Positions 8,527 through 48,279 of a DNA stretch of 64,000 bases are shown piece by piece (the first letter of the stretch is position 1; the number at the start of each line of letters is the position of its first letter). The stretch is from contig CAKZJV010000007.1 in NCBI GenBank assembly GCA_937120475.1, forward strand, positions 2,124,068 to 2,188,067. Reading direction: 5' to 3'. The DNA is from an uncultured Cryomorphaceae bacterium (GTDB taxonomy: Bacteria > Bacteroidota > Bacteroidia > Flavobacteriales > Schleiferiaceae). Under the pieces are notes generated by a model, which saw only the letters and a list, made by a program, of their open reading frames with translations, was not told the origin of the DNA and made no database searches. A program made the translations under genes and the position numbers.

Positions 8527-9858
8527 TTATTTGCCGATCGCGAAGATCAGTTCTTCTTTAGCGTTTAAAAGGTTTTGTAATGCATTGAGGTAGTTTTGCT
8601 GGGCCTCCAAATATTGATTTTCAGCCTGGGTAAGGTCAAGGCTTGAACTAATCCCTTCGGTATATTTTACGCGGGTTTTATCCCTGATCCTCTTACTTAA
8701 TTCAACATTCCTGATTTGAGTATTGTAATTGTCATACGAATATTCATAATTGGATTTGGCCTGGTCATATTCCAACTGAAGCTGACTTTTGGTAAGCTCT
8801 TTAGCCACTTTAGCTCTGTCAAGGTCAAGACGAGCCTTTTGAACCGTAGCCGGGCGTTTAAAACCTTGAAGAATATTCCACTGCAGGCTCAAGCCAATGG
8901 CGGTGCTGGGTATCCAGTCATCGGAGAAATCCCAAAGCGGGTCAAACTCATTCTGGAAATTTGATCGGCCATGCCGTAAAAAAGCAGATAAAGTAGGCAG
9001 GTATTTCATTTTTTCATTTCGTACCTGCAATTCCGCACCCTGTGCTTGAACATCAACGTATTTAAAGTTAACGTTTTCCTCAGCGGAAAAGGCATCCTGG
9101 AATAAGGCATCTTCTTCCACCAAAACGTCCTCCAGGCTACTGCTTAGCTGAATAGGGGCATTGGTTTCACGGCCCATATTAAAATTCAACATCATTTTAG
9201 CCAGTTCGTATTGCCTTTTAGTTCTATTGAGGTTATTCGAAAGGTTAGAGACCAACAGTTCCAACTGATCTACATCCTGTTCCTCTACAAAACCATTGTT
9301 ATACAAGGCACTGGTTTCCTTTAAATTCTTTTCCAATGTCCCGATATTTTCTTCCAGAACCTCAATGGTTTTTTCAGAAATCAAAACACCGTAGTAGGCC
9401 TGTGACACGTTCTTTTTTATTTCCCATTCTGATATTTCCTTATCCAGGCGCGCGGCATTTTTATATACCCGGGTAGCCTGAAGTGCAACAAAGTAGGAGC
9501 CATCTAACAGAAGCTGATCTACATTCAGGCTGGCGATATTTTGATAATTGGTTCCAAAGGCTACGGTTTGAAATGTACCGCGCTCTCCTCCAAAAAATTC
9601 GGCTGGCACGGGTTGCTGAGCAATTTCAGCATTCCACGTAAAGTCAAAACCAGCGTTAACCTGAGGTAGTCCTATGGCCGCAGTTTCCTTGATGGTTTGT
9701 TTGGCTTTTTCAAACTCATACTGCTTATCCACTACTGCATATCCGTTTTCCAAGGCATATTGCTGTGCCTCCTCCAGTGAAAAGGAGCGTTCCTCTACTT
9801 GAGCATGGCCCAGGAAGCTTATCAGCAAGGCCATAATTAAAAACTTTGGCGGTTTCAT
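8527..9858 (-). CDS. TolC-family outer membrane efflux protein
   Basis: Outer-membrane channel partner of the pump and adaptor encoded downstream. A signal peptide (MKPPKFLIMALLISFLGHAQ) is followed by two internally repeated long-helix OEP halves of ~200 residues. Typical signatures are SFSLEEAQQYALENGY near the N-terminus, VSQAYYGVLISEKTIEVLEENI, and the C-terminal LDLTQAENQYLEAQQNYLNALQNLLNAKEEL. 443 residues, usual for the family. It starts 7 bases after the tetR stop, so the regulator and transport genes are likely co-transcribed. Confidence 0.93.
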   Translation of the reverse strand: MKPPKFLIMALLISFLGHAQVEERSFSLEEAQQYALENGYAVVDKQYEFEKAKQTIKETAAIGLPQVNAGFDFTWNAEIAQQPVPAEFFGGERGTFQTVAFGTNYQNIASLNVDQLLLDGSYFVALQATRVYKNAARLDKEISEWEIKKNVSQAYYGVLISEKTIEVLEENIGTLEKNLKETSALYNNGFVEEQDVDQLELLVSNLSNNLNRTKRQYELAKMMLNFNMGRETNAPIQLSSSLEDVLVEEDALFQDAFSAEENVNFKYVDVQAQGAELQVRNEKMKYLPTLSAFLRHGRSNFQNEFDPLWDFSDDWIPSTAIGLSLQWNILQGFKRPATVQKARLDLDRAKVAKELTKSQLQLEYDQAKSNYEYSYDNYNTQIRNVELSKRIRDKTRVKYTEGISSSLDLTQAENQYLEAQQNYLNALQNLLNAKEELIFAIGK

Positions 9859-9865
9859 TGGCTAT

Positions 9866-10480
9866 TTATTCTTTTTCAGATTTTAATTTCTTCTCCAGGT
9901 AGTCCAGTCCCTTGGGCGATGCTATTCCCCTGATATGATAAAGCAATGCCTGGCGCATGATGGGTTTCATATCATATTTATTGATCAGTTCCTCCTCTTC
10001 ATCGGGCAGGGTATCCACCTTACTGCAATAGAGGTGGGTCACTATGTCCGATTTCAAATCATCACGATACAATCCGTCCCTCATCCCGTTTTCGGTATTC
10101 TCAGCAATCATTTTATGAATGAGCTGCTTACGCCCCTGAAAAACCTCGTTATAAGTGCGGGGGTAATACTTCTTCAGTTGAAAGCGCACCCCGGGGTTAT
10201 GATTTTCCATAATCTCGCGCACCACCCGGTCAATATCAAACAACTCATCAATAGCGTTTTGGGCGCTACGGTGAATCTCTTCCATACGCGTTTTAATGGT
10301 ATCATGCACCAGCGTTACACACTTGTGAACCAAATCCGCCTTGTTTTCAAAAAACCGGTAAATGGTTTTTTTGGAAATCCCCATTTCACGCGCCACATCA
10401 TCCATTGTAATACTACGGATGCCATACCTCATAAAAAGATCCAGTGTCCGCAATATGATTTCCTGCTCCTGTGTTTCCAT
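9866..10480 (-). CDS. TetR/AcrR-family transcriptional repressor of the efflux operon
   Basis: The N-terminal ~50 residues are a classic TetR helix-turn-helix: IILRTLDLFMRYGIRSITMDDVAREMGISKKTIYRFFENKADLV has the usual spacing and conserved residues. The remaining ~150 residues form the helical ligand-binding domain, which is not conserved enough to name an inducer. I use the ATG at 10480; the frame extends 4 codons to a TTG, which is less likely. First gene of the operon. A long palindrome immediately upstream (10515-10542) is its probable operator, implying autorepression together with the pump. 204 residues, normal. Confidence 0.92.
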   Translation of the reverse strand: METQEQEIILRTLDLFMRYGIRSITMDDVAREMGISKKTIYRFFENKADLVHKCVTLVHDTIKTRMEEIHRSAQNAIDELFDIDRVVREIMENHNPGVRFQLKKYYPRTYNEVFQGRKQLIHKMIAENTENGMRDGLYRDDLKSDIVTHLYCSKVDTLPDEEEELINKYDMKPIMRQALLYHIRGIASPKGLDYLEKKLKSEKE

Positions 10481-10489
10481 AATCCGCGG

Positions 10490-10497
10490 CAAATGTA
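10490..10497 (-). promoter_or_regulatory. -7 promoter element of the tetR-efflux operon (TACATTTG)
   Basis: On the minus strand TACATTTG matches TAnnTTTG and lies 9 bases before the tetR ATG. The operator palindrome covers the region 18-45 bases upstream of it, where the -33 element would be. Confidence 0.55.
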
Positions 10498-10514
10498 GAA
10501 ACTAAATTGAAACA

Positions 10515-10542
10515 GGAAACTTTTCATGTGTAAAAAGTTTCC
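10515..10542. promoter_or_regulatory. Probable TetR operator palindrome
   Basis: Two perfect 10-base inverted arms, GGAAACTTTT and AAAAGTTTCC, are separated by 8 bases in the intergenic region between divergent tetR and asnS. Length, symmetry and position over the tetR promoter fit an operator for the adjacent TetR-family protein. There is no T tract, so a terminator is unlikely. Confidence 0.65.
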
Positions 10543-10623
10543 AAAGTTTTTGCGGATTCCTACCATGCCTATTCGCACTTGCTGATTTTTTAACAACCTT
10601 TGCAGCCTTAATGACGATAACAC

Positions 10624-12057
10624 ATGATGGATCACCAGACTATATCTGACGTTTTAGCAACACAGACCATAGGTTCAACCGTTATTTTGAAGGGTTGGGT
10701 ACGTACCTTCCGGAGTAACCGTTTCATTGCCCTTAACGATGGAAGCACCCTTAAAACCATACAGGTGGTGGTTGATTTTGAGAGTACCGAAAAGGAAGTT
10801 TTGGAAAAAATTACCACCGGTGCCTGTATTGCCGTAAAAGGTGACCTGGTAAAATCATTGGGTAAGGGGCAGGATGTTGAAGTTCATGCTTCTGAATTAA
10901 GGATTTTGGGGGCTTGTGATCCCAATGATTATCCCCTTCAGCCTAAAAAACACTCCATGGAGTTTCTCCGGGAGATTGCCCACCTACGCCCCCGTACCAA
11001 TACCTTCGGAGCCATACTGAGAGTCCGCCATGCACTGGCCTATGCCATTCATCAGTACTTCCATGAACGTGGTTTTTTCTGGATGCACACGCCCATCATA
11101 ACCGGAAGCGATGCCGAGGGAGCTGGAGAAATGTTCAACGTATCGGTTCTGGATAAAAAGAATATCCCCCTTACCGAGGAGGGCGAAGTGGACTTTAAGA
11201 AGGATTTTTTTGGAAAGGAGGCCAACCTCACGGTTTCCGGCCAGTTGGAAGCAGAATTAGGTGCCACCGCACTTGGTAAGGTATATACTTTCGGGCCTAC
11301 CTTCAGGGCCGAGAACAGTAATACCACCCGCCACCTGGCCGAATTCTGGATGATTGAGCCGGAGGTAGCCTTTGCTGACCTGGACGATAATATGGACCTG
11401 GCGGAGGACTTCCTGAAAAAGGTCATTCAATATACCCTCCAAAAGTGTGGTGACGACCTGGAGTTTTTAGCCGAGCGCATGGCCCAGGAAGACAAAGGCA
11501 AGCCCGAAAAAGAACGCAGTGAAATGGGCCTTATTGAAAAGCTCAATTTTGTGGTCGATAATAACTTCCGCAGGGTAAGCTATACTGAGGCCATTGACAT
11601 TTTACGCAACTCCAAGCCCAACAAAAAGAAAAAGTTCCAATACCTCATTGATGAGTGGGGGGCCGACCTTCAGTCGGAACACGAAAAATTCCTGGTAAAG
11701 CACTTCGGTGCCCCGGTTATACTGTTTGATTACCCGGCCACGATCAAGGCTTTCTATATGCGCCTGAACGAAGATGAAAAAACGGTTCGCGCAATGGATA
11801 TTCTCTTCCCCGGTATTGGTGAAATTGTAGGCGGCTCCCAAAGGGAAGAGCGCTACGATGTTCTCAAAAACAAGATTAAGGAATTCGGTATTGAAGAGGA
11901 AAATCTTTGGTGGTACCTGGAAACCCGCAAGTTCGGAACCTGTGTACATAGCGGTTTTGGTTTGGGCTTTGAACGCCTGGTGCTTTTCGTTACCGGAATG
12001 AGTAATATCCGCGATGTAATTCCTTTTCCACGTACTCCGGGAAGCGCAGAATTCTAG
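10624..12057 (+). CDS. asnS: Asparaginyl-tRNA synthetase
   Basis: Class IIb synthetase that charges tRNA-Asn in the cytosol. An N-terminal OB-fold anticodon domain ([22 protein letters not shown]) is followed by the catalytic core with motif 2 around [24 protein letters not shown] and motif 3 [40 protein letters not shown] and the TRHLAEFWM pattern separate AsnRS from AspRS. 477 residues, typical of the bacterial enzyme with its internal insertion. Two consecutive ATGs (10624 and 10627) are possible starts. An AACCTTTG, one base off the -7 consensus, lies at 10595-10602. Confidence 0.97.
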
Positions 12058-12191
12058 GCGGAGCTGAACATTTTAGCACCTTGCTTTGTCCTCTTCTTTA
12101 TAAGTTCGGCAAAATTTTTGATAGGCGAGTGAGAAGTTCTTGCCAATTTTTTCTACTTTCCCTCGCATAATCTAAGCAAGAACGTGCATTT

Positions 12192-13643
12192 ATGCTGAAG
12201 CAGCAGCTCAGTCAAAAACTCTTACAAAAGCTTTCACCGCAGCAAATTCAGTTGATGAAACTGATCCAGTTGCCTACCCAGGCATTGGAACAAAAAATTA
12301 AGGAAGAGCTGGAGGAAAATCCTGCTTTGGAAGAAGGTATAGATGAGGATGAACGTTATGAGGAAGAGAGCGACACTTACGAGGACGATGACAATCAAAG
12401 CATTGAGGCGGAGGACATTAACGTTGACGAATACCTAAGTGATGATGAAGTGCCGGACTATCGCCTTAAAGCCAACAACTATTCTAAGGACGATGAAGAT
12501 GCCCGCGTTCCGATAAGCGGGGGCTCCAGTTTTACCGAGCTGTTGATGGATCAGATCAGCATGCGTAAAATGAGTGAGGAGGATCGCCAGGTTGCTGAAT
12601 ACCTGATCGGGAATATTGACGATGATGGCTACATCCGCAGGGAGTTGAGTGCCATAGTAGATGATTTGGCTTTTACCCAGAATATTTTTGTGGAAGAGCA
12701 AAAACTGGAGGATATCCTGGCCATAATCCAGGAGTTGGACCCTCCGGGAGTAGGAGCCCGCGATTTACAGGAGTGCCTGGTTATTCAGCTCCAACGAAAA
12801 GATAATACTGCAGCCGTTCGGCTGGCCCGTGAAATACTGGAAAACCACTTTGACGAGTTCATCAAAAAGCACTACTCCAAGCTGATGGAAAAGCTGGAGA
12901 TTGATGAAGATTACCTTAAAGATGCCATCAATGTTATCAGTCGGCTTAACCCCAAACCCGGCAACTCTTCCAGTTCCAGTCAACGCTCCGTGCAGGCAGT
13001 TACCCCTGATTTTACCATCAGTATTGAAGACGGTGAGTTGGAGCTGAGCCTGAATTCGCGCAATGCGCCCGAATTAAACGTGAGCCGTGAATACAAGGAT
13101 ATGCTGGAAACTTACAAGAGTTCCCAGGAAAAAAACAAGGCACAAAAAGACGCGGTGATGTTTGTAAAACAAAAGCTGGACAGTGCCAAGTGGTTCATTG
13201 ATGCTATACGGCAAAGGCAACAAACGCTGCTTATCACCATGTCATCCATTATGAACTTTCAAAAGGAGTACTTCCTGAGCGGTGACCAGCGCAAGTTGCG
13301 ACCCATGATCCTGAAGGATATTGCCGAGGAAATAGGTATGGATATTTCCACGGTATCGCGGGTAGCCAGCAACAAGTACGTCCAAACCCCTTACGGTACT
13401 TTTCTTATTAAAGAGTTCTTTTCCGAGTCCATGACCAATGATGCCGGGGAAGAGGTTTCTACCAAGGAGATTAAAAAAATACTGGAGGACTCGGTGGGTG
13501 AAGAAAACAAACGAAAACCGCTTACCGATGAAAAACTGGCCAAGCTCCTCAAAGAGAAAGGGTACCCCATTGCGCGCAGAACGGTGGCCAAATACCGCGA
13601 GCAACTGGGAATACCGGTAGCCCGCCTGCGCAAAGAATTGTAG
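12192..13643 (+). CDS. rpoN: RNA polymerase sigma-54 factor
   Basis: Alternative sigma factor requiring AAA+ enhancer-binding activators; recognises -24/-12 promoters. Region I is the glutamine/leucine-rich N-terminus (QKLLQKLSPQQIQLMKLIQLP). An acidic region II follows at ~residues 50-90, then the core-binding domain with ELDPPGVGARDLQECL, a helix-turn-helix with EEIGMDISTVSRVASNKYVQTPYG, and the C-terminal RpoN box ARRTVAKYREQLGIP. 483 residues, normal. No activator gene is present in the window. The next gene starts 2 bases after the stop. Confidence 0.97.
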   Translation: MLKQQLSQKLLQKLSPQQIQLMKLIQLPTQALEQKIKEELEENPALEEGIDEDERYEEESDTYEDDDNQSIEAEDINVDEYLSDDEVPDYRLKANNYSKDDEDARVPISGGSSFTELLMDQISMRKMSEEDRQVAEYLIGNIDDDGYIRRELSAIVDDLAFTQNIFVEEQKLEDILAIIQELDPPGVGARDLQECLVIQLQRKDNTAAVRLAREILENHFDEFIKKHYSKLMEKLEIDEDYLKDAINVISRLNPKPGNSSSSSQRSVQAVTPDFTISIEDGELELSLNSRNAPELNVSREYKDMLETYKSSQEKNKAQKDAVMFVKQKLDSAKWFIDAIRQRQQTLLITMSSIMNFQKEYFLSGDQRKLRPMILKDIAEEIGMDISTVSRVASNKYVQTPYGTFLIKEFFSESMTNDAGEEVSTKEIKKILEDSVGEENKRKPLTDEKLAKLLKEKGYPIARRTVAKYREQLGIPVARLRKEL

Positions 13644-27213: not shown

Positions 27214-27810
27214 ATGCCCTCCGAAACCACCATTCCATTGTCCCCTTCTAAAACCTATCATATCTACGGGCGGGCTACTGGTAATGAAGTGCTTTTCCGC
27301 TCGGATGAAAATTATGATTTCTTCCTCAAGCTTTATAAAAAATACATTGTTCCACTGGCGCATACCTATTGCTACTGCCTCATGTCCAACCATTATCATT
27401 TCTTAGTTCGTTTAAAGGATGAGAAAGAGTTGCGGGAAAATTTCCCCAAGAAAAAAGAGACGATTGTCGTCTCTCAGGATAAGCTTAAAGTAGAAAAGCA
27501 TATCTCTCAGCAGTTCAGCAATTTTTTGAATAGCTATGCCAAGGCTTACAATAAACACTACAAACGTATGGGCGGTCTCTTTATCCGGCCTTTTAAGCGA
27601 AGGTTGGTAGAAGACGAAAAGTACTGGATCAAGCTCGTTCATTATATTCATAGCAATCCTATTTCCGCCAAGCTCGTCACTAACTTGAAGAACTATCGCT
27701 TTTCTTCCTACCCATACATTCTTCAGGAAGATAATACCTGGCTCAAAACCCGTGAGGTTTTAGAGTGGTTTGGAGGCATTGAAAGTTTTACCGCTTATCA
27801 TGAGACCTGA
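27214..27810 (+). CDS. REP-associated tyrosine transposase (RAYT, Y1/HUH)
   Basis: A single-domain IS200/IS605-like Y1 nuclease. Residues ~14-35 have YHIYGRATGNEVLF; the HUH metal motif is H60-Y61-H62 in YCLMSNHYHFLV; the expected catalytic Tyr is Y108 in FLNSYAKAYNKHY; and FIRPFKRRLVEDEKYWIKLVHYIHSNP is the family-specific continuation. 198 residues, normal for RAYTs. It is flanked by REP palindromes on both sides, and its last codons and stop lie within REP 3. RAYTs are domesticated transposases that recognise REP sequences. It looks intact. Confidence 0.92.
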   Translation: MPSETTIPLSPSKTYHIYGRATGNEVLFRSDENYDFFLKLYKKYIVPLAHTYCYCLMSNHYHFLVRLKDEKELRENFPKKKETIVVSQDKLKVEKHISQQFSNFLNSYAKAYNKHYKRMGGLFIRPFKRRLVEDEKYWIKLVHYIHSNPISAKLVTNLKNYRFSSYPYILQEDNTWLKTREVLEWFGGIESFTAYHET

Positions 27811-39489: not shown

Positions 39490-41538
39490 CTAACTTTGAT
39501 CTAATTTTCTGACCATGGTCAAAATGGTAGCCAGGGCCACGGTTTCCCCTTCCTCATCGTACACATCCACGTTGAACTTAACGATGCCCTTGGCAATATC
39601 CTCTTCACTTTTCTTCTCCTGGTCAATTTTTTCCTTTACAGTGAATTTTACGCCAATGGTCATTCCCGGGTAAACGGGCTTGGTAAAGCGGCATTCATCA
39701 ATACCGTAATTCAGCAGTACCGGCCCTTTACGGGGATCCACAAACATTCCCGCTGCTTTGGAAAGCACGTAGTAACCGTGTGCTACTTTACCCTCAAAGA
39801 TGGTTCCGTCCAGGGAGGTAGCATCCACGTGGGCATAAAAATTATCGCCACTTACCTGGGCAAAGCTCGCAATATCGGCATCGGTAACGGTGTGTTTATG
39901 GGTGTACACCGTATCACCAACCTTAAGCTCTTCAAAATGCTGGCGGAAAACGTGCTTTTCCACCTCGGGACGGGAAGCCCCCGGTTGATAGATCTGCGTA
40001 ATTTCGGTAATACTGTCCGGGTGGCCCTGGATGGCGGTGCGTTGCAGGTAGTGTAAAATTCCGCGTTTACCGCCCATTTCTTCACCGCCACCGGCCCGTC
40101 CGGGACCTCCGTGGGTCAGCAGAGGCATGGGTGAACCGTGACCGGTACTTTCCTTAGCGGATTTGGCATTCAACACCTGTATGCGGCCGTGCATGTGAGC
40201 CGCCTCTACCACAAACTCACGCCCGATCTTATCATCAGCCGTAACGATGGTGGAAACCAGGGAGCCTTTCCCCATATTGGCTATTTCAACGGCTTCTTCC
40301 AGGTCTTTGTAAGGCAACAAACTGGACACGGGTCCAAAACACTCTACCTCGTGTACATCGGTATGCTTAAACGGGTCGGAATTACGAAAAAGCAGAGGAG
40401 CTACAAAGGCTCCTTTTTCGCGGTCGGCACCTACCACGTCAAAATCGCGGAGGTCACCGTACACTACTTCCTGTTGTTTTTTAAGGCGCTCTACGTTTTC
40501 CTGCAAACGCTCTATCTGCACCTTATTGGCCAGCGCACCCATGCGCACTTCTTTATTGCGGGGATTGCCGATCACCGTTTTTTTGAGGCGTTCAGTCAAG
40601 GCTTCCTGCACCGCATCCATTTTATTTTCAGGAACCACTATTCTGCGCACAGCCGTACACTTTTGACCGGCTTTGGTAGTGATTTCGCGCTGCACTTCTT
40701 TCACAAAAATGTCGAACTCCGGCATACCGGGTTCCACATCCGGGCCCAACACGGCAGCGTTCAGGGAGTCGGCTTCCAGGTTAAAGGTTACCGAACGGTC
40801 AATAATGTGTGGTAAAGCCTGCAACTTTTTACCGGTGGCTGCTGAGCCGGTGAAGGTCACCGTATCCCCGGTTTGTACATGATCCAGAATACCGCGCCCT
40901 AAACCGGAAACCAGTTGCAAAGAACCTTCCGGCAATATTTTAGAGTCGATAATGGCTTTTACCATGTGCTCGGTTAAAAAGGAAGTGTACTCCGATGGTT
41001 TTACCACGGCCGGTACACCGGCCATCAGGTTTACGGCTATCTTTTCGAGCATACCCCAAACCGGGAAGTTAAAGGCGTTAATGTGCACCGCCACTCCGCG
41101 TTTTGGTACCATAATATGGTGCCCGATAAAGGTACCTCCTTTAGAAAGGGCGGCCGGTTGGCCATCTACGTAATAAGGAAGGTCGGGAAACTGCCTGCGC
41201 AGGGAAGCATTGGCAAAAAGGTTACCGATACCACCTTCAATATCTACCCAACTGTCTATTTTGGTGGCTCCCGTGCGGAAGCTGGTTTCGTAAAACTGGT
41301 CTTTCACCTCAAACAGGTGTAGCGCCAATGCTTTCAGCATACGCCCCCTTTCCTGGAAGGTCATTTTACGGAGGGCTTTACCGCCTTTCTCACGGCCGTA
41401 TTGCAGAATGGCCTCGTAATCCAAGCCTTCGCTGGATACTATACCGATATTTTCACCGGTAATGGCATCCGTAGCCATAAGCTCCTCGCCCTTTCCGCTT
41501 TCCCATTTTCCTAAAACGTAGTTCTGTATGTGTTGCAT
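39490..41538 (-). CDS. paaZ: Phenylacetate degradation bifunctional protein PaaZ
   Basis: Fusion of an aldehyde dehydrogenase (residues ~1-520) and a MaoC-type enoyl-CoA hydratase (~535-682). In phenylacetate catabolism it opens the oxepin-CoA ring and oxidises the semialdehyde. Seen: VAVHINAFNFPVWGMLEKIAVNLMAG, FTGSAATGKKLQ, FNLEADSLNA (Glu base), TKAGQKCTAVRRIVVP (catalytic Cys), then the hydratase FAQVSGDNFYAHVDA and VAHGYYVLSKAAGMFVD. Start chosen at the ATG 41538, after AAAGGAC; the frame reaches a TTG at 41565. 682 residues, normal. The ring-epoxidase genes paaABCDE are not in this window. Confidence 0.93.
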   Translation of the reverse strand: MQHIQNYVLGKWESGKGEELMATDAITGENIGIVSSEGLDYEAILQYGREKGGKALRKMTFQERGRMLKALALHLFEVKDQFYETSFRTGATKIDSWVDIEGGIGNLFANASLRRQFPDLPYYVDGQPAALSKGGTFIGHHIMVPKRGVAVHINAFNFPVWGMLEKIAVNLMAGVPAVVKPSEYTSFLTEHMVKAIIDSKILPEGSLQLVSGLGRGILDHVQTGDTVTFTGSAATGKKLQALPHIIDRSVTFNLEADSLNAAVLGPDVEPGMPEFDIFVKEVQREITTKAGQKCTAVRRIVVPENKMDAVQEALTERLKKTVIGNPRNKEVRMGALANKVQIERLQENVERLKKQQEVVYGDLRDFDVVGADREKGAFVAPLLFRNSDPFKHTDVHEVECFGPVSSLLPYKDLEEAVEIANMGKGSLVSTIVTADDKIGREFVVEAAHMHGRIQVLNAKSAKESTGHGSPMPLLTHGGPGRAGGGEEMGGKRGILHYLQRTAIQGHPDSITEITQIYQPGASRPEVEKHVFRQHFEELKVGDTVYTHKHTVTDADIASFAQVSGDNFYAHVDATSLDGTIFEGKVAHGYYVLSKAAGMFVDPRKGPVLLNYGIDECRFTKPVYPGMTIGVKFTVKEKIDQEKKSEEDIAKGIVKFNVDVYDEEGETVALATILTMVRKLDQS

Positions 41539-41729
41539 GTCCTTTGTAAAGTTTTGGAGGGCCAAAGATAACCCTCTGGTTGAGTCCTGTCATCATGTGA
41601 GTAATTAGATTAATACAGTTGTCAAAAAGTCACTTCTAAAAGCTTTATGAACAAGCAAGTATTAGTTTCTTAGCAAAAGATCATTTTGTTTTTTTGCATT
41701 AAACACTATTTTTAGGTCAAAATTTTTTT

Positions 41730-43019
41730 ATGACTGCGGTAGTAGGTATTCTTAATCAACAAGCCGTTGCCGTTGCGGCCGATAGTGCTGTTACTGTACG
41801 CGGAGCAAACGGTATTAAGATTTTCAATCAGGCAAATAAAATTTTTACTCTTTCAAAAAGGCATCCAATAGGAGTTATGATTTATAATTCTGCCACATTA
41901 ATGGGTGTCCCTTGGGAAACCATAATTAAGTCATATCGCCATCAGCTGGGTGGAAAGGAACTAACCTCAGTAGAGGAATACCAAAGTGATTTTATCAACT
42001 ATCTTCATAAGAATGACTTTTTTATGTCTGAAAGTGATCAGTTGAGTTATTATGAGGACTTCTTTTATTCATCACTTATTAGTATCAAAAATGATGTGTC
42101 AAAGGAGAATCCAGAAATATTAGGCCTTGGAGGTTTAGAACAGGATAAAGCGTTTTCTAAACTCCTTTTAGGTTTTCTAAAGAAATTTACTCAGCTGATT
42201 GAATCCCAATCCGAAAAATGTGAAGAGTTCAAGAACGTGTCTAATGAAACTATTCTAGACTTCATAGAAGATCCGCTGAAAAAATCAGTCGTGCTTTTCT
42301 TTAGCAAGGACTATAAGCCTTCTAAAGCTTTATTTACGGCCCTAAAGAAATTTTTCTCTACTATAATCAAGCATAAAGGCACTTTAGATAACTTTACTGG
42401 TTTAGTCTTTACGGGCTTTGGTTCAGAAGATATTTATCCAAAGTTAATTCCCATTAATATCTCCTTAGTAGTAAAGGACAGACTAAAGTATTTTGTTGAT
42501 AGGCGCAATTCTGCAACTATTAGCTACGACATGAATAGTGCTATTCGTCCTTTCGCACAGACGGATGTTATTGATACAATTCTGTCTGGAGTGGCCCCAG
42601 AATTAGAATCTACTTTTATGGAAAATTTTGAACTTTTCTTCTCAAAATATAATGAATTGCTGATAAAGGAAGTTGACAACCCAGATGTCGAGACTCTTAT
42701 CAGACGAATCAATGTTCCAGAGTTGATAAGTAATTATGCCGATCAAATTGCTCAAGTGAAAACAACCTACCATATTAAGCCTCTCATGAATGCTGTAAGT
42801 TTTCTCTCGAAAGAGGATTTGGCTGAAATGGCCGAGAGTTTGATTTATCTCACTTATTTGAAAAGGCGAATTACATTTGCCGAGGAAAGTGTTGGCGGTC
42901 CTGTTGATGTCGCGGTGATTTCAAAAGGGGACGGTTTTATTTGGTTGAAGAGAAAACACTATTTTAAACCGGAGCTAAACGGACACTTTTTCGAAAATTA
43001 TTTTAATTTTGAAGGATAA
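41730..43019 (+). CDS. Putative proteasome/HslV-like Ntn-hydrolase protein
   Basis: 429 residues, no signal peptide or membrane segment. The N-terminus MTAVVGILNQQAVAVAADSAVTV follows the HslV/proteasome-beta pattern: Thr2 would become the N-terminal nucleophile after Met removal, Asp18 matches catalytic Asp17, and Lys37 in ANKIFTL matches Lys33. Later strands also fit: IGVMIYNSATLMG, TGLVFTGFGSEDIYP (~223-237) and VGGPVDVAVISKGDGF (~388-403). About 145 mostly helical residues (75-220) and another helical block (~270-385) enlarge it beyond the ~180-residue HslV. More AT-rich than its neighbours. Its TAA overlaps the ATG of a 59-codon gene. Function unknown; the fold assignment is my inference. 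Confidence 0.7.
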   Translation: MTAVVGILNQQAVAVAADSAVTVRGANGIKIFNQANKIFTLSKRHPIGVMIYNSATLMGVPWETIIKSYRHQLGGKELTSVEEYQSDFINYLHKNDFFMSESDQLSYYEDFFYSSLISIKNDVSKENPEILGLGGLEQDKAFSKLLLGFLKKFTQLIESQSEKCEEFKNVSNETILDFIEDPLKKSVVLFFSKDYKPSKALFTALKKFFSTIIKHKGTLDNFTGLVFTGFGSEDIYPKLIPINISLVVKDRLKYFVDRRNSATISYDMNSAIRPFAQTDVIDTILSGVAPELESTFMENFELFFSKYNELLIKEVDNPDVETLIRRINVPELISNYADQIAQVKTTYHIKPLMNAVSFLSKEDLAEMAESLIYLTYLKRRITFAEESVGGPVDVAVISKGDGFIWLKRKHYFKPELNGHFFENYFNFEG

Positions 43020-43198
43020 TGGATTTTTTAAGCTTTATTGATTCTCGCAGAAACTCCGAATTGGATACTACTCCTAGAAATGTCGGATCAACCGATAATT
43101 CTTCTTGCTTCAAGCCCTCTATGAGTCCTTCTGAGGTTGCAGATACGATTTCTGAACAACTTGTTGAGTCTATAAAAAACCAAGTACAAGCTTTATAG
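43019..43198 (+). CDS. 59-residue protein translationally coupled to the Ntn-hydrolase-like gene
   Basis: The ATG at 43019 shares its A with the TAA of the preceding gene (TAATG), the classic arrangement for coupled translation. The product begins MDFLSFIDSRRNSELDTTPR, has a Ser/Asn-rich middle, and ends with a predicted amphipathic helix SPSEVADTISEQLVESIKNQVQAL. Same AT-rich composition as its partner. Not recognised. It could be a substrate, adaptor or inhibitor of the Ntn-like protein; no evidence decides between these. Confidence 0.65.
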   Translation: MDFLSFIDSRRNSELDTTPRNVGSTDNSSCFKPSMSPSEVADTISEQLVESIKNQVQAL

Positions 43199-43357
43199 CA
43201 ATTAACCACGACAGGGTTCTTTTTCCCAAAAAATGCCAAGTTCCCCTAACCCTTCCTGCCAGCTTTGCACCAAAATCCGCAAAACTGACAGGGTAAGATT
43301 ATCCGTCTTTTTTAGCTTTTTTAAACAACTCATTGTTTTTCAGTGTTTTATGTTTTC

Positions 43358-43389
43358 GGAGGTAAATTAACACCTCCAAAAAAGGTGTT
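43358..43389 (+). promoter_or_regulatory. Overlapping alternative hairpins in the proC leader
   Basis: GGAGGT (43358-43363) can pair with ACCTCC (43372-43377), while AACACCT (43369-43375) can pair with AGGTGTT (43383-43389). The two stems share bases and exclude each other, as in attenuators. There is no T tract directly after the second stem. It lies 55 bases before the proC ATG, and the 245-base gap from the preceding gene contains no other feature I can name. Confidence 0.4.
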
Positions 43390-43443
43390 CCGTACGGTGC
43401 TTGCACTCTATAGGGCTATTATTAACCAATTGAAAAGAATACC

Positions 43444-44259
43444 ATGAAAGTATTGGTCATAGGGGCCGGAAATATGGGCTTGACGTATGCGCAGGCCATT
43501 TCCAAATCCGATTTTTTGAAACCCAAGGATCTGATGATTCTGGATAGTGCCCCGGACAAGACTTCACAACTCAAAAAAATCAGCGACTTTGATGTTTATG
43601 AAAGCCTGGAAAAATGCGTGCCCAGGGCAGACATCATTTTTGTAGCGGTTAAGCCCTACCATGCTGAAAATCTCTTTAAGGAGATGCGCACCATGATGAA
43701 TGATGAGCAGATTATTATTTCCATTATGGCGGGGGTAAGCATTGCCTTTATTAAGGAAAGTTTGGGGGTTACCCGCGTGGTTCGCGCCATGCCTAATTTA
43801 CCGGCACAGGTAGGCAAGGGTATGACTTCCTATACCGCATCCGATGAAGTTTCTCGCCTTGAATTACTAACCATTGAGAACCTGCTGGACACCACCGGGC
43901 GTTCCGTAAGGCTGGATACTGAGAATGATGTGGACGCCTCGACCGGAATTTCCGGTAGTGGCCCGGCCTATATTTTTTACTTCATGCAATCCATGATCGA
44001 AGCGGCCCAAAAAATGGGTTTTTCCGATCACGATGCCCGGGTTTTGGTAGGTCAAACCTTTGAAGGAGCGGTGGAGCTCTTCAATAAAAACGACCTGGAC
44101 CCCAACACCTGGATGGACCGCGTAGCCTCTAAAGGCGGTACCACCCGTGCAGCACTGGACTCTATGGACGACAGCAATGTGAATGAATTGATCAAGGACG
44201 CGGCTTATGCGGCTTTTAAACGCGCGGTAGAGCTGGGTAAAGAATACCAAAACAAGTAG
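43444..44259 (+). CDS. proC: Pyrroline-5-carboxylate reductase
   Basis: Last step of proline synthesis: NAD(P)H-dependent reduction of pyrroline-5-carboxylate. The N-terminal Rossmann motif is VLVIGAGNMGLTYAQAI, followed by ADIIFVAVKPYHAENLFKEM, IISIMAGVSIAFIKESLG, and VVRAMPNLPAQVGKGMTSY. The C-terminal dimerisation domain carries the signature GISGSGPAYIFYFMQSMIEAAQKMG and SKGGTTRAALDSMDD. 271 residues, normal. First gene of proC-proB-proA; its TAG overlaps a possible GTG start of proB. Confidence 0.96.
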   Translation: MKVLVIGAGNMGLTYAQAISKSDFLKPKDLMILDSAPDKTSQLKKISDFDVYESLEKCVPRADIIFVAVKPYHAENLFKEMRTMMNDEQIIISIMAGVSIAFIKESLGVTRVVRAMPNLPAQVGKGMTSYTASDEVSRLELLTIENLLDTTGRSVRLDTENDVDASTGISGSGPAYIFYFMQSMIEAAQKMGFSDHDARVLVGQTFEGAVELFNKNDLDPNTWMDRVASKGGTTRAALDSMDDSNVNELIKDAAYAAFKRAVELGKEYQNK

Positions 44260-46388: not shown

Positions 46389-46424
46389 CCCCCGCCCCGG
46401 TTGCCCGGGGCGGGGGTTTTGTTT
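46389..46424 (+). terminator. Intrinsic terminator after proA
   Basis: A 10-bp GC-only stem (CCCCCGCCCC / GGGGCGGGGG) with an 8-base loop is followed by TTTTGTTT. It lies 25 bases after the proA stop and touches the end of the convergent DUF4062-TPR gene. Confidence 0.85.
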
Positions 46425-48279
46425 ATTCAGCAAGCCTTTCTTCTTTAATTTTTTCCAGATTCCTCGCCACAATCTCCTCAATTTCTTTGAAACCGCACTG
46501 TGTAGCAATTTCCAGCGCCTTTTCACACATTGCTTCGGCCTCATCCAGATCCTCGCGAGCCCAAAGAACATTAGCTAGGTTTCCGTAATCGCTAGCCATA
46601 CCTTCCTGGCGACCTAATTTTTCTTCTATGGCTAAAGACTTTTTATACATCTCCTCGGCTCTGTCCAGATCCCCACGGATTCGAAAAACAATTCCCAGGT
46701 TTCCGTATTGATTCGCCATACCTTCCTGGTGACCTAGCTTTTCATTAATCTCCAAGGCCTTTCTGCACATCTCCTCGGCTCCCTCCAAATCCCCACGGGT
46801 TTTCAAAACAATTCCCAGGTTTCCGTATTGATTCGCCATACCTTCCTGGTGACCTAGCTTTTCATTGATCTCCAAGGCCTTTCTGTACATCTCCTCGGCT
46901 CCCTCCAAATCCCCACGGATTTGAAAAACAGTCCCCAGGTTTCCGTAATCGCTAGCCATACCTTCCGGGCGACCTAGCTTTTCATTGATCTCCAAGGCCT
47001 TTCTGCACATCTCCTCGGCTCCCTCCAAATCCCCACGGATTCGAAAAACAATTCCCAGGTTTCCGTATTGATTCGCCATACCTTCCTGGTGACCTAGCTT
47101 TCCATTGATCTCCAAGGCCTTTCTGTACATCTCCTCGGCTCCCTCCAAATCCCCACGGGTTTTCAAAACAATTCCCAGGTTTCCGTAATCGCTAGCCATA
47201 CCTTCCTGGCGACCTAATTTTTCCTCTATTGCTAAAGACTTTCTATACATCTCCTCGGCTCCCTCCAAATCCCCACGGATTTGAAAAACAATTCCCAGGT
47301 TTCCGTATTGATTCGCCATACCTTCCGGGCGACCTAGCTTTTCATTGATCTCCAAGGCCTTTCTGCACATCTCCTCGGCTCCCTCCAAATCCCCACGGAT
47401 TCGAAAAACAATTCCCACAGCATTGAAAGTATTGGCCCGCATAATTTCATCCGCTTCAGACTCCGATAGTTTTAGAGCTTGCTCCAACATCACCATGGTT
47501 TTATCCAATTGACCCGTTAAGGTTAAGAATTGGGCGTAGCTCAATAAGTTCTTTGCAGATGGGTCGTTGACAATGGCCTTTGAAAAAGCTATTTCAGCAT
47601 CCACCAACTTTCCCTGTCTAGCCAACTCATGGGCTTTGGAAATAATTTCCGAAGTAGCTAACTCTTGCCTGGTTTCTAATTCCGGCTGAAAAGGAGTTTC
47701 CGGAGGGGTTTGTGGGTATTGATAGCCTCCATCCAAACTATTACCATCTTCCCGTAACCACCTTCCCAGGTTTTTACGTATCAATTTCTTAAAATCATCC
47801 AGGCTGGTGAAATCGGAATATAAAAGTGTTTTTTCCTTTTCCAGTTTACGCTTAAAATTGATTACTTTTTTTAACTCCGGTCCAGCATCGGCCATTTGGG
47901 GAAGAGGAACCGATTTAAAAAGGCAAACCAACTGTTTCATCGGAGCCTTTGACCTTTTAAAGCACTCTAGGGCTATTTTGTACTCTTCCTCGGTGCCGGA
48001 AGTCGCATTACTGGGGTTATCTCCGGGGTCAGAGCCCCACCGGTCGTGTAAAATCAATACAAAAAAATCACACTTTTTTAGCTCTTCATTGATCTGGCTT
48101 TGAGGTCTGCCCATACCGGGTAAAGTGTCTTCCCATCCTACAGCCTGGAAAATTACATCGCGGTGTAAGGCCTCGTCATTATTATATTCTCCGATTTCAT
48201 TTTTGAAGGCTTTTCGCTCCTCATCCAAGCCTTTGGGGGAGGCTATAAATATGCGATAAGATGTTAATTGACCCGGCAT
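46423..48279 (-). CDS. DUF4062-like N-terminal domain with TPR array
   Basis: 618 residues. Residues ~7-110 match the DUF4062 type of cytosolic domain: YRIFIASPKGLDEERKAFKNEI, VIFQAVGWEDTLPG, INEELKKCDFFVLILHDRWGSDPG, GTEEEYKIALE. This domain is regarded as related to the TIR / nucleoside-deoxyribosyltransferase-like folds and heads many NLR-like proteins; here no NTPase follows. From ~285 to 600 come eight 40-residue TPRs (GDLEGAEEMCRKALEINEKLG), seven nearly identical, preceded by more diverged TPRs. No signal peptide. The architecture suggests a sensor-effector, possibly in defence, but that is inference. Confidence 0.75.
   Translation of the reverse strand: MPGQLTSYRIFIASPKGLDEERKAFKNEIGEYNNDEALHRDVIFQAVGWEDTLPGMGRPQSQINEELKKCDFFVLILHDRWGSDPGDNPSNATSGTEEEYKIALECFKRSKAPMKQLVCLFKSVPLPQMADAGPELKKVINFKRKLEKEKTLLYSDFTSLDDFKKLIRKNLGRWLREDGNSLDGGYQYPQTPPETPFQPELETRQELATSEIISKAHELARQGKLVDAEIAFSKAIVNDPSAKNLLSYAQFLTLTGQLDKTMVMLEQALKLSESEADEIMRANTFNAVGIVFRIRGDLEGAEEMCRKALEINEKLGRPEGMANQYGNLGIVFQIRGDLEGAEEMYRKSLAIEEKLGRQEGMASDYGNLGIVLKTRGDLEGAEEMYRKALEINGKLGHQEGMANQYGNLGIVFRIRGDLEGAEEMCRKALEINEKLGRPEGMASDYGNLGTVFQIRGDLEGAEEMYRKALEINEKLGHQEGMANQYGNLGIVLKTRGDLEGAEEMCRKALEINEKLGHQEGMANQYGNLGIVFRIRGDLDRAEEMYKKSLAIEEKLGRQEGMASDYGNLANVLWAREDLDEAEAMCEKALEIATQCGFKEIEEIVARNLEKIKEERLAE
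46621..47460 (-). repeat. Tandem 120-base repeats encoding TPR units
   Basis: Seven strong copies with an exact 120-base period; the marker CTCCTCGGCT recurs at 46651, 46771, 46891, 47011, 47131, 47251 and 47371. Neighbouring units are roughly 90% identical and differ by swapping a few short alternative blocks, so the array looks shaped by recombination or gene conversion. An eighth diverged unit lies at the 3' end of the gene. Confidence 0.9.

Follow-up and report, generated by a model that had tools for sequence, protein, structure and literature searches.

A predicted stand-alone proteasome-like threonine hydrolase and its small partner gene, found in a Cryomorphaceae bacterium and on mobile DNA

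What does a proteasome-like hydrolase do when it is encoded apart from any unfoldase and is followed immediately by the gene for a very small protein? The question is raised by a stretch of 64,000 nucleotides from an uncultured Cryomorphaceae bacterium (assembly GCA_937120475.1, contig CAKZJV010000007.1, positions 2,124,068 to 2,188,067; hereafter the window). An initial annotation, made from the letters alone, had described here a two-gene cassette in which a 429-residue proteasome/HslV-like N-terminal nucleophile (Ntn) hydrolase is coupled through a TAATG overlap to a 59-codon gene. Both open reading frames (ORFs) and their junction (GGATAATGG) are indeed present, the overlap being a single base, so that the last A of the enzyme's TAA is also the A of the small gene's ATG. 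We propose, with a probability of about one half, that the pair consists of a stand-alone proteasome-like threonine hydrolase and a dedicated small regulatory partner, carried as accessory cargo of mobile DNA, and that its most likely use is against competing phages.

Fold, catalytic residues and N-terminus of the enzyme

We built an AlphaFold2 model of the 429-residue enzyme with 108 homologous sequences, which gave a mean predicted local distance difference test (pLDDT) score of 93.3 and a predicted template modelling score (pTM) of 0.90. A Foldseek search with this model returned 20S proteasome subunits and Anbu as the top matches, and VIA-align superposed it on the yeast 20S beta5 subunit with a Z of 19.4 (185 residues, 3.3 Å, about 15% identity). 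In this alignment, Thr2 of the model coincides with the catalytic Thr1, the first residue of the 20S beta subunits. As modelled, the core is the proteasome beta fold, an Ntn alpha-beta-beta-alpha sandwich, in agreement with the fold predicted by the initial annotation. Sequence searches of Pfam, NCBIfam, PADLOC and the PDB gave no significant match for the enzyme; the matches to KamB (NCBIfam, E 0.18) and ClpS (E about 1) were judged to be due to chance.

Thr2, Asp18 and Lys37, proposed from the sequence as counterparts of the proteasome catalytic residues, lie at those positions and are almost invariant. Among 154 homologues, position 2 is occupied by Thr in 150 and by Ser in 2, with a gap in the other 2, so that each of the 152 filled rows carries Thr or Ser, and both Asp18 and Lys37 are kept in 154 of 154. 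Since 88 of the 109 non-redundant loci offer no in-frame alternative start upstream, Met-Thr is the true N-terminus, without a propeptide. Catalysis by the predicted enzyme is well supported by this conservation together with the model. For one Escherichia coli homologue (L174, 12787-14190), RefSeq places the start 32 codons ahead of the conserved Met-Thr; this start is probably misannotated and hides the catalytic N-terminus.

The two large helical insertions anticipated by the initial annotation are also present in the AlphaFold2 model. The first is folded into five helices (residues 101-126, 128-132, 135-160, 172-190 and 199-214) and is poorly conserved in sequence, and the second comprises three (290-314, 318-325 and 329-356). 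These insertions occupy the sites at which HslV and the proteasome form their pore-side and ring-to-ring contacts (PMC8665760), and a canonical double ring is therefore unlikely. The highest conservation is found in a C-terminal signature (Table 1), where E386, V388, G390, P391, D393, D401, G402, W405, R408, K409, Y411, F412 and N417 are each kept in 97-100% of the 154 homologues.

As had been noted from the sequence, no HslU, Clp or other ATPase gene adjoins the enzyme gene in the window. Searches of the whole window genome gave zero matches to Pfam Proteasome (PF00227) and no match to hslU above the cut-off, all matches to the hslU model falling below it, and the enzyme would thus have neither HslV nor HslU to work with.

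The small partner gene

We scored a small ORF as a partner when it began with ATG, spanned 44-76 codons and started between -30 and +25 bases from the enzyme stop. Such an ORF was found directly after the enzyme gene in 97 of 107 non-redundant loci (91%), compared with 84 of 1177 (7.1%) for the other long ORFs of the same loci. Where homologous pairs of the small gene gave a finite dS, the ratio of nonsynonymous to synonymous substitution rates (dN/dS) was 0.06-0.32. The small gene thus encodes a real protein constrained by purifying selection, and it mostly evolves faster than the enzyme gene. A dedicated small partner for the enzyme is well supported. The initial annotation had named three outcomes that would speak against it, namely an unconserved Thr2, a different fold and the lack of a conserved small gene downstream; all three were examined and none of them was found.

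The small proteins resisted a single alignment across all clades, which is what would be expected if the small ORF were a chance reading frame. This explanation is scarcely credible, and for the family it is refuted by the frequency of 91% against 7%, by dN/dS values well below 1, and by clade-wise models that recover held-out small proteins with E values to 1e-23. One clade, of archaea, Nitrospirota, Planctomycetota and Bacillota, is marked by a [FY]FPK-type motif and, after it, a 'DP..LG..LA.ESL.KI' helix, and the Bacteroidota clade, to which the window protein belongs, by a '..M...EISE.VSEKL...VK.QF' helix. The archaeal-type and Firmicute-phage clades were matched by hhalign with an E of 6e-5, at a probability of only 65. 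A link of these clades to the Bacteroidota small proteins was not established by hhalign (E 0.007, probability 5), nor was a link to the gammaproteobacterial clade by the clade-wise models. The clades are alike in position, size and layout, though sequence homology between them is unproven.

Some structural information came from locus L097, whose small gene shares the reading frame of the enzyme gene, so that enzyme and small protein could be modelled as one chain through the stop. In this read-through model, the segment matching the C-terminal helix of the window small protein forms one long helix (residues 472-505), and a conserved VLSAF block (452-456) has a pLDDT of 75, with 31-35 and 44 in the flanking stretches. 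This local confidence is compatible with docking of the block on the enzyme and shows no contacts in itself.

The fixed two-gene order, with its stop/start overlap or very short spacing, raises the alternative of a toxin-antidote addiction pair, in which the hydrolase would harm the host unless inhibited by a short-lived small protein, so that the element is retained. The faster evolution of the small gene, the carriage on mobile elements and the HigB-like toxin and helix-turn-helix (HTH) genes directly upstream of the pair in satellites would suit such a pair as well. However, locus L025 has no partner, L022 encodes only 26 amino acids, and the Mesorhizobium locus L009 has no comparable small ORF. 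In addition, the enzyme gene comes first here, whereas many toxin-antitoxin operons put the antitoxin first. We thus consider an addiction pair unlikely, though it is the foremost of the competing functions.

Distribution and probable role of the pair

A single-sequence scan of genome contigs detected no relatives, and an alignment of 11 homologues then led to 471 genome contigs. Two-motif scans yielded homologues on 168 viral contigs and on these 471 genome contigs, which include those of methanogenic and anaerobic methanotrophic (ANME) archaea. Nearly full-length homologues of about 30% identity are encoded by streptococcal satellites and a streptococcal prophage, by phages of Porphyromonas, Stenotrophomonas and Providencia, and by plasmids of rhizobia, Pantoea, Ruegeria and Enterococcus. 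In a tree of 122 rows the phyla are interleaved, as are viral and cellular copies. The pair is rare and patchy, being present in 7 of 395 Bacteroidota genomes, in 2 of 10 genomes within one genus, and in none of 59 relatives of the window genome.

A homologue is carried by 22 of 5426 E. coli genomes. The two distinct E. coli contexts that we inspected are both accessory positions in prophages; in one the gene runs antisense next to the Q antiterminator and tRNA genes, and in the other it adjoins the repressor. In other strains, the equivalent prophage slots hold unrelated genes (Table 1), as would be expected if the pair were exchangeable cargo. None of the proteins encoded by these three gene groups has a match in Pfam or PADLOC. 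As the initial annotation had stated, the pair sits alone in an AT-rich islet between paaZ and proC, with a GC content of 0.33-0.38 against 0.44-0.54 for most of the flanking sequence. In a genome of the same genus (G002), the paaZ-proC interval is occupied by 10.35 kb of other genes, and this interval is a variable chromosomal site. The genes of G002 there (L195, 2288-12385) resemble, by eye, a Kup-type transporter, a sugar transporter, a sulfatase, a GH97-type enzyme, a sigma factor and a ClpP-like gene.

This distribution bears on two further explanations. A protease of phage morphogenesis, with head or tail proteins as its substrates, would fit the Porphyromonas phage BK068103, which has the gene among its head-tail genes. 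We regard this role as very improbable, because in E. coli prophages, a Stenotrophomonas phage and the satellites the gene is placed apart from the structural cluster, in many cases on the other strand or by the repressor, and because it also occurs on plain chromosomes and plasmids. A chromosomal stress or clean-up protease independent of ATP, a role suggested for BPH and the uncapped 20S proteasome, would be consistent with the archaeal and deep bacterial copies and with the many copies whose neighbours are ordinary genes of the chromosome, such as the hemB common to several Flavobacteriaceae. The very patchy occurrence, even inside genera, the frequency on phages and satellites, and the position of the window pair in an AT-rich islet at a variable site make this explanation improbable too. 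In four Flavobacteriaceae (L114, L115, L116 and L119, around 8990-13000), the pair directly follows hemB with a gap of 18-21 bp, and a longer gene on the same strand lies downstream of it; such a stable setting speaks against the pair being purely mobile in these bacteria.

Genes of conflict systems are found beside some of the homologues. In streptococcal satellites, the pair stands at the element end, directly after a Gp49/HigB-like toxin gene and an HTH gene. On Rhizobium plasmids, it adjoins an operon of a multiubiquitin-E2 fusion, ThiF-JAB, DUF6527 and ClpP, and on a Mesorhizobium plasmid the enzyme gene lies beside ThiF and multiubiquitin genes that are arranged differently. At L010 multiubiquitin is fused to the E2 domain and ThiF is accompanied by JAB, and three of the four rhizobial plasmids continue with DUF6527 and ClpP genes. 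A few of 37 chromosomal loci (clearly L164, L130 and L137) adjoin SIR2/ThsA-like, type I restriction or N6-methylase genes. Clustering with known defence genes, for which the initial annotation had proposed a survey, is seen only in occasional cases, most neighbours being ordinary.

Taken together, the patchy spread over satellites, prophages, plasmids and exchangeable slots, and the HigB-like/HTH, SIR2/ThsA-like, type I restriction and ubiquitin-like neighbours of some homologues, count in favour of accessory cargo with an anti-phage function. The pair is probably cargo by which mobile DNA or its host competes with other phages, and an anti-phage role is our best single guess at its function. 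Several observations weigh against this proposal. Neither protein matches any defence model of PADLOC 2023 up to E 10, and defence neighbours are a minority among the chromosomal loci, where copies often have ordinary neighbours such as hemB, IF-2, PolA and CODH. For the alternative cargo of the E. coli slots, PADLOC and Pfam gave two marginal matches, one of them to LmuB of PADLOC, and no other identity. Finally, in a motif comparison, what we take to be the secondary beta5 residues Ser129, Asp166 and Ser169 appear as Ala276, Glu386 and Gly389. These three columns are conserved in the enzyme alignment at 98%, 99% and 95%, and the apparent replacement means that the activity may differ from ordinary proteolysis.

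The presumed loss of Ser129 and Ser169 would also suit connectase-like processing or ligation, in which the small protein is the specific substrate, to be cleaved or attached as a peptide tag to a target. The superfamily of the enzyme also includes connectase, a specific ligase that has no proteolytic role (PMC8665760), and the small proteins do keep a short conserved motif amid variable sequence. However, no one cleavage-site motif is common to all small-protein clades, and the connectase hallmarks, the lack of H1/H2 and an S3-S4 insertion, are absent from the enzyme model. We therefore regard this role as doubtful, slightly more so than an addiction pair.

For the anti-phage cargo that we favour, the following mechanism can be envisaged. 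The enzyme would be made without a propeptide, and host methionine aminopeptidase, the enzyme that removes Met1 in such cases, would expose the Thr2 nucleophile, to be activated by Asp18 and Lys37 as by Asp17 and Lys33 of the proteasome. Because the insertions occupy the sides through which HslV and the 20S proteasome assemble into rings and double rings, it may act as a monomer or small oligomer that needs no unfoldase and accepts restricted substrates. The overlapping gene would supply the small protein in a fixed ratio to the enzyme. The small protein, whose co-occurrence and selection are established, may dock via its short hydrophobic N-terminal motif and its C-terminal helix, as local model confidence suggests, and would regulate the enzyme as an inhibitor or a substrate adaptor. 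Infection by a rival phage would then release or direct the enzyme, and a phage or host protein would be cleaved. More tentatively, and with less confidence than in the proposal as a whole, the pair may represent an unrecognised class of immune system, composed of an ATPase-independent proteasome homologue and a small sensor or inhibitor, that is spread over archaea, bacteria, prophages and satellites and, in rhizobia, stands by a ubiquitin-like operon.

The locus and its relation to known proteasome-like families

The coordinates of the features discussed here are collected in Table 1. Promoter and terminator scans of the window gave no excess over shuffled sequence, and Rfam gave no match in it. 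Beside proA, a 618-residue DUF4062-TPR protein is encoded at 46423-48279 (-), the DNA for its TPR array consists of a 120-bp repeat in seven near-identical copies (86% match, or 90% for a 360-bp superunit); a DUF4062 protein also lies upstream of the enzyme homologue at locus L165. A 198-residue protein encoded at 27214-27810 (+) resembles, by eye, a transposase associated with repetitive extragenic palindromes (REP; HUH type), and has no Pfam match at E 1e-5.

Table 1. Positions of the gene pair, its parts and its neighbours in the window, and of gene groups near homologues at other loci
Feature	Position	Strand	Remarks
Enzyme gene	41730..43019	+	429 codons; product starts MTAVVGI
Thr2 codon	41733..41735	+	predicted nucleophile after Met1 loss
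Asp18 codon	41781..41783	+	equivalent of proteasome Asp17
Lys37 codon	41838..41840	+	equivalent of proteasome Lys33
First helical insertion	42012..42392	+	about residues 95-221, after H1/H2, before strand S6
Second helical insertion	42591..42806	+	about residues 288-359, between core helices H3 and H4
C-terminal signature	42885..42980	+	E386-x-V-G-G-P-x-D-V...DGF-x-W...RKHYF...N417, strands S10/S11; most conserved
Small partner gene	43019..43198	+	59 codons; start codon overlapping enzyme stop
C-terminal helix segment of small protein (SPSEVADTISEQLVESIKNQVQ)	43124..43189	+	most conserved part in Bacteroidota clade (small-protein alignment)
AT-rich islet with the gene pair	41566..43443		between paaZ-like gene and proC; from GC profile
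paaZ-like aldehyde dehydrogenase/MaoC fusion	39490-41565	-	left neighbour of islet
proC	43444-44259	+	right neighbour of islet, first of proCBA genes
Alternative gene groups in E. coli prophage slots	L206 4711-6172; L207 2226-3953; L204 3487-4614		
Ubiquitin-like genes by enzyme gene, four rhizobial plasmids	L010 7937-11423; L197 9699-13210; L198 9687-13203; L009 2733-4799		

Here, one of the largest families of proteasome homologues appears, in nearly every genome examined, in the form of a coupled two-gene unit, and it has a mobile lifestyle. What stand-alone proteasome relatives do thereby becomes open to direct experiment, and the pair bears on how a proteasome-type active site works without a ring or an ATPase.

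Among the classical relatives, HslV (ClpQ) shares with the window enzyme the proteasome beta-type core, the N-terminal Thr and the bacterial origin. However, HslV is a compact subunit of about 175 amino acids that matches PF00227 and needs HslU, whereas the window enzyme has 429 amino acids and no Pfam match; HslV is thus half its size and lacks the helical insertions. The 20S beta subunit is the best structural match (the Z of 19.4 given above), from which the window enzyme differs in its insertions of roughly 127 and 72 residues and in having no propeptide, alpha subunit or ATPase. Anbu, a proteasome-like bacterial homologue likewise without HslU, follows with a Z of 18.7; it has a long C-terminal H5 coiled-coil and no large insertions, whereas the modelled enzyme ends in only a short helix (418-425). 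Connectase is similar in being a stand-alone superfamily member with extra helices and narrow specificity, but it has no H1/H2 and carries a two-helix insertion between S3 and S4, whereas in our model the helices 62-73 and 81-94 are present and the strands 21-25 and 28-32 are joined by a short turn.

A closer counterpart is found among the 22 proteasome-like families described by Fuchs, Alva and Lupas in 2021 (PMC8665760). In that survey, a long insertion after H1/H2 occurs in PHI, PMI-3 and PMI-4 only and an H3/H4 insertion in PMI-2 to PMI-6, so that PMI-3 and PMI-4 alone have both. PMI-4 ('Proteasome homolog with Multiple Insertions') is listed there for Proteobacteria, Firmicutes, Bacteroidetes, Cyanobacteria, the Planctomycetes-Verrucomicrobia-Chlamydiae (PVC) group, Actinobacteria, Euryarchaeota and phages, most of which PMI-3 lacks. 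The window enzyme shares with PMI-4 the proteasome-like core, the Thr/Asp/Lys residues, the absence of a propeptide and both insertion sites. Its homologues occur in all of the groups listed for PMI-4 except Actinobacteria, none of which were seen among the loci kept. On comparison of these described features alone, the enzyme is very probably PMI-4 (reference sequence HDY66466.1). It is certainly a member of PHROG 5990, as phrog_5990 matches it over the full length with an E of 2.5e-104; this group is annotated as 'unknown function', with no partner annotated.

The idea of a new kind of system thus holds in part. In the open-access literature (subscription papers and preprints being outside our scope), we found no work on the enzyme family beyond the survey of 2021. 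That survey describes the family alone, without function, gene context or small partner; it reports no genomic context suggestive of function, and the word operon is absent from its text (PMC8665760). The enzyme family itself is therefore already catalogued and not new, whereas its two-gene organisation, with the small partner, and its mobile-element context, as cargo of satellites and prophages, appear to be new.
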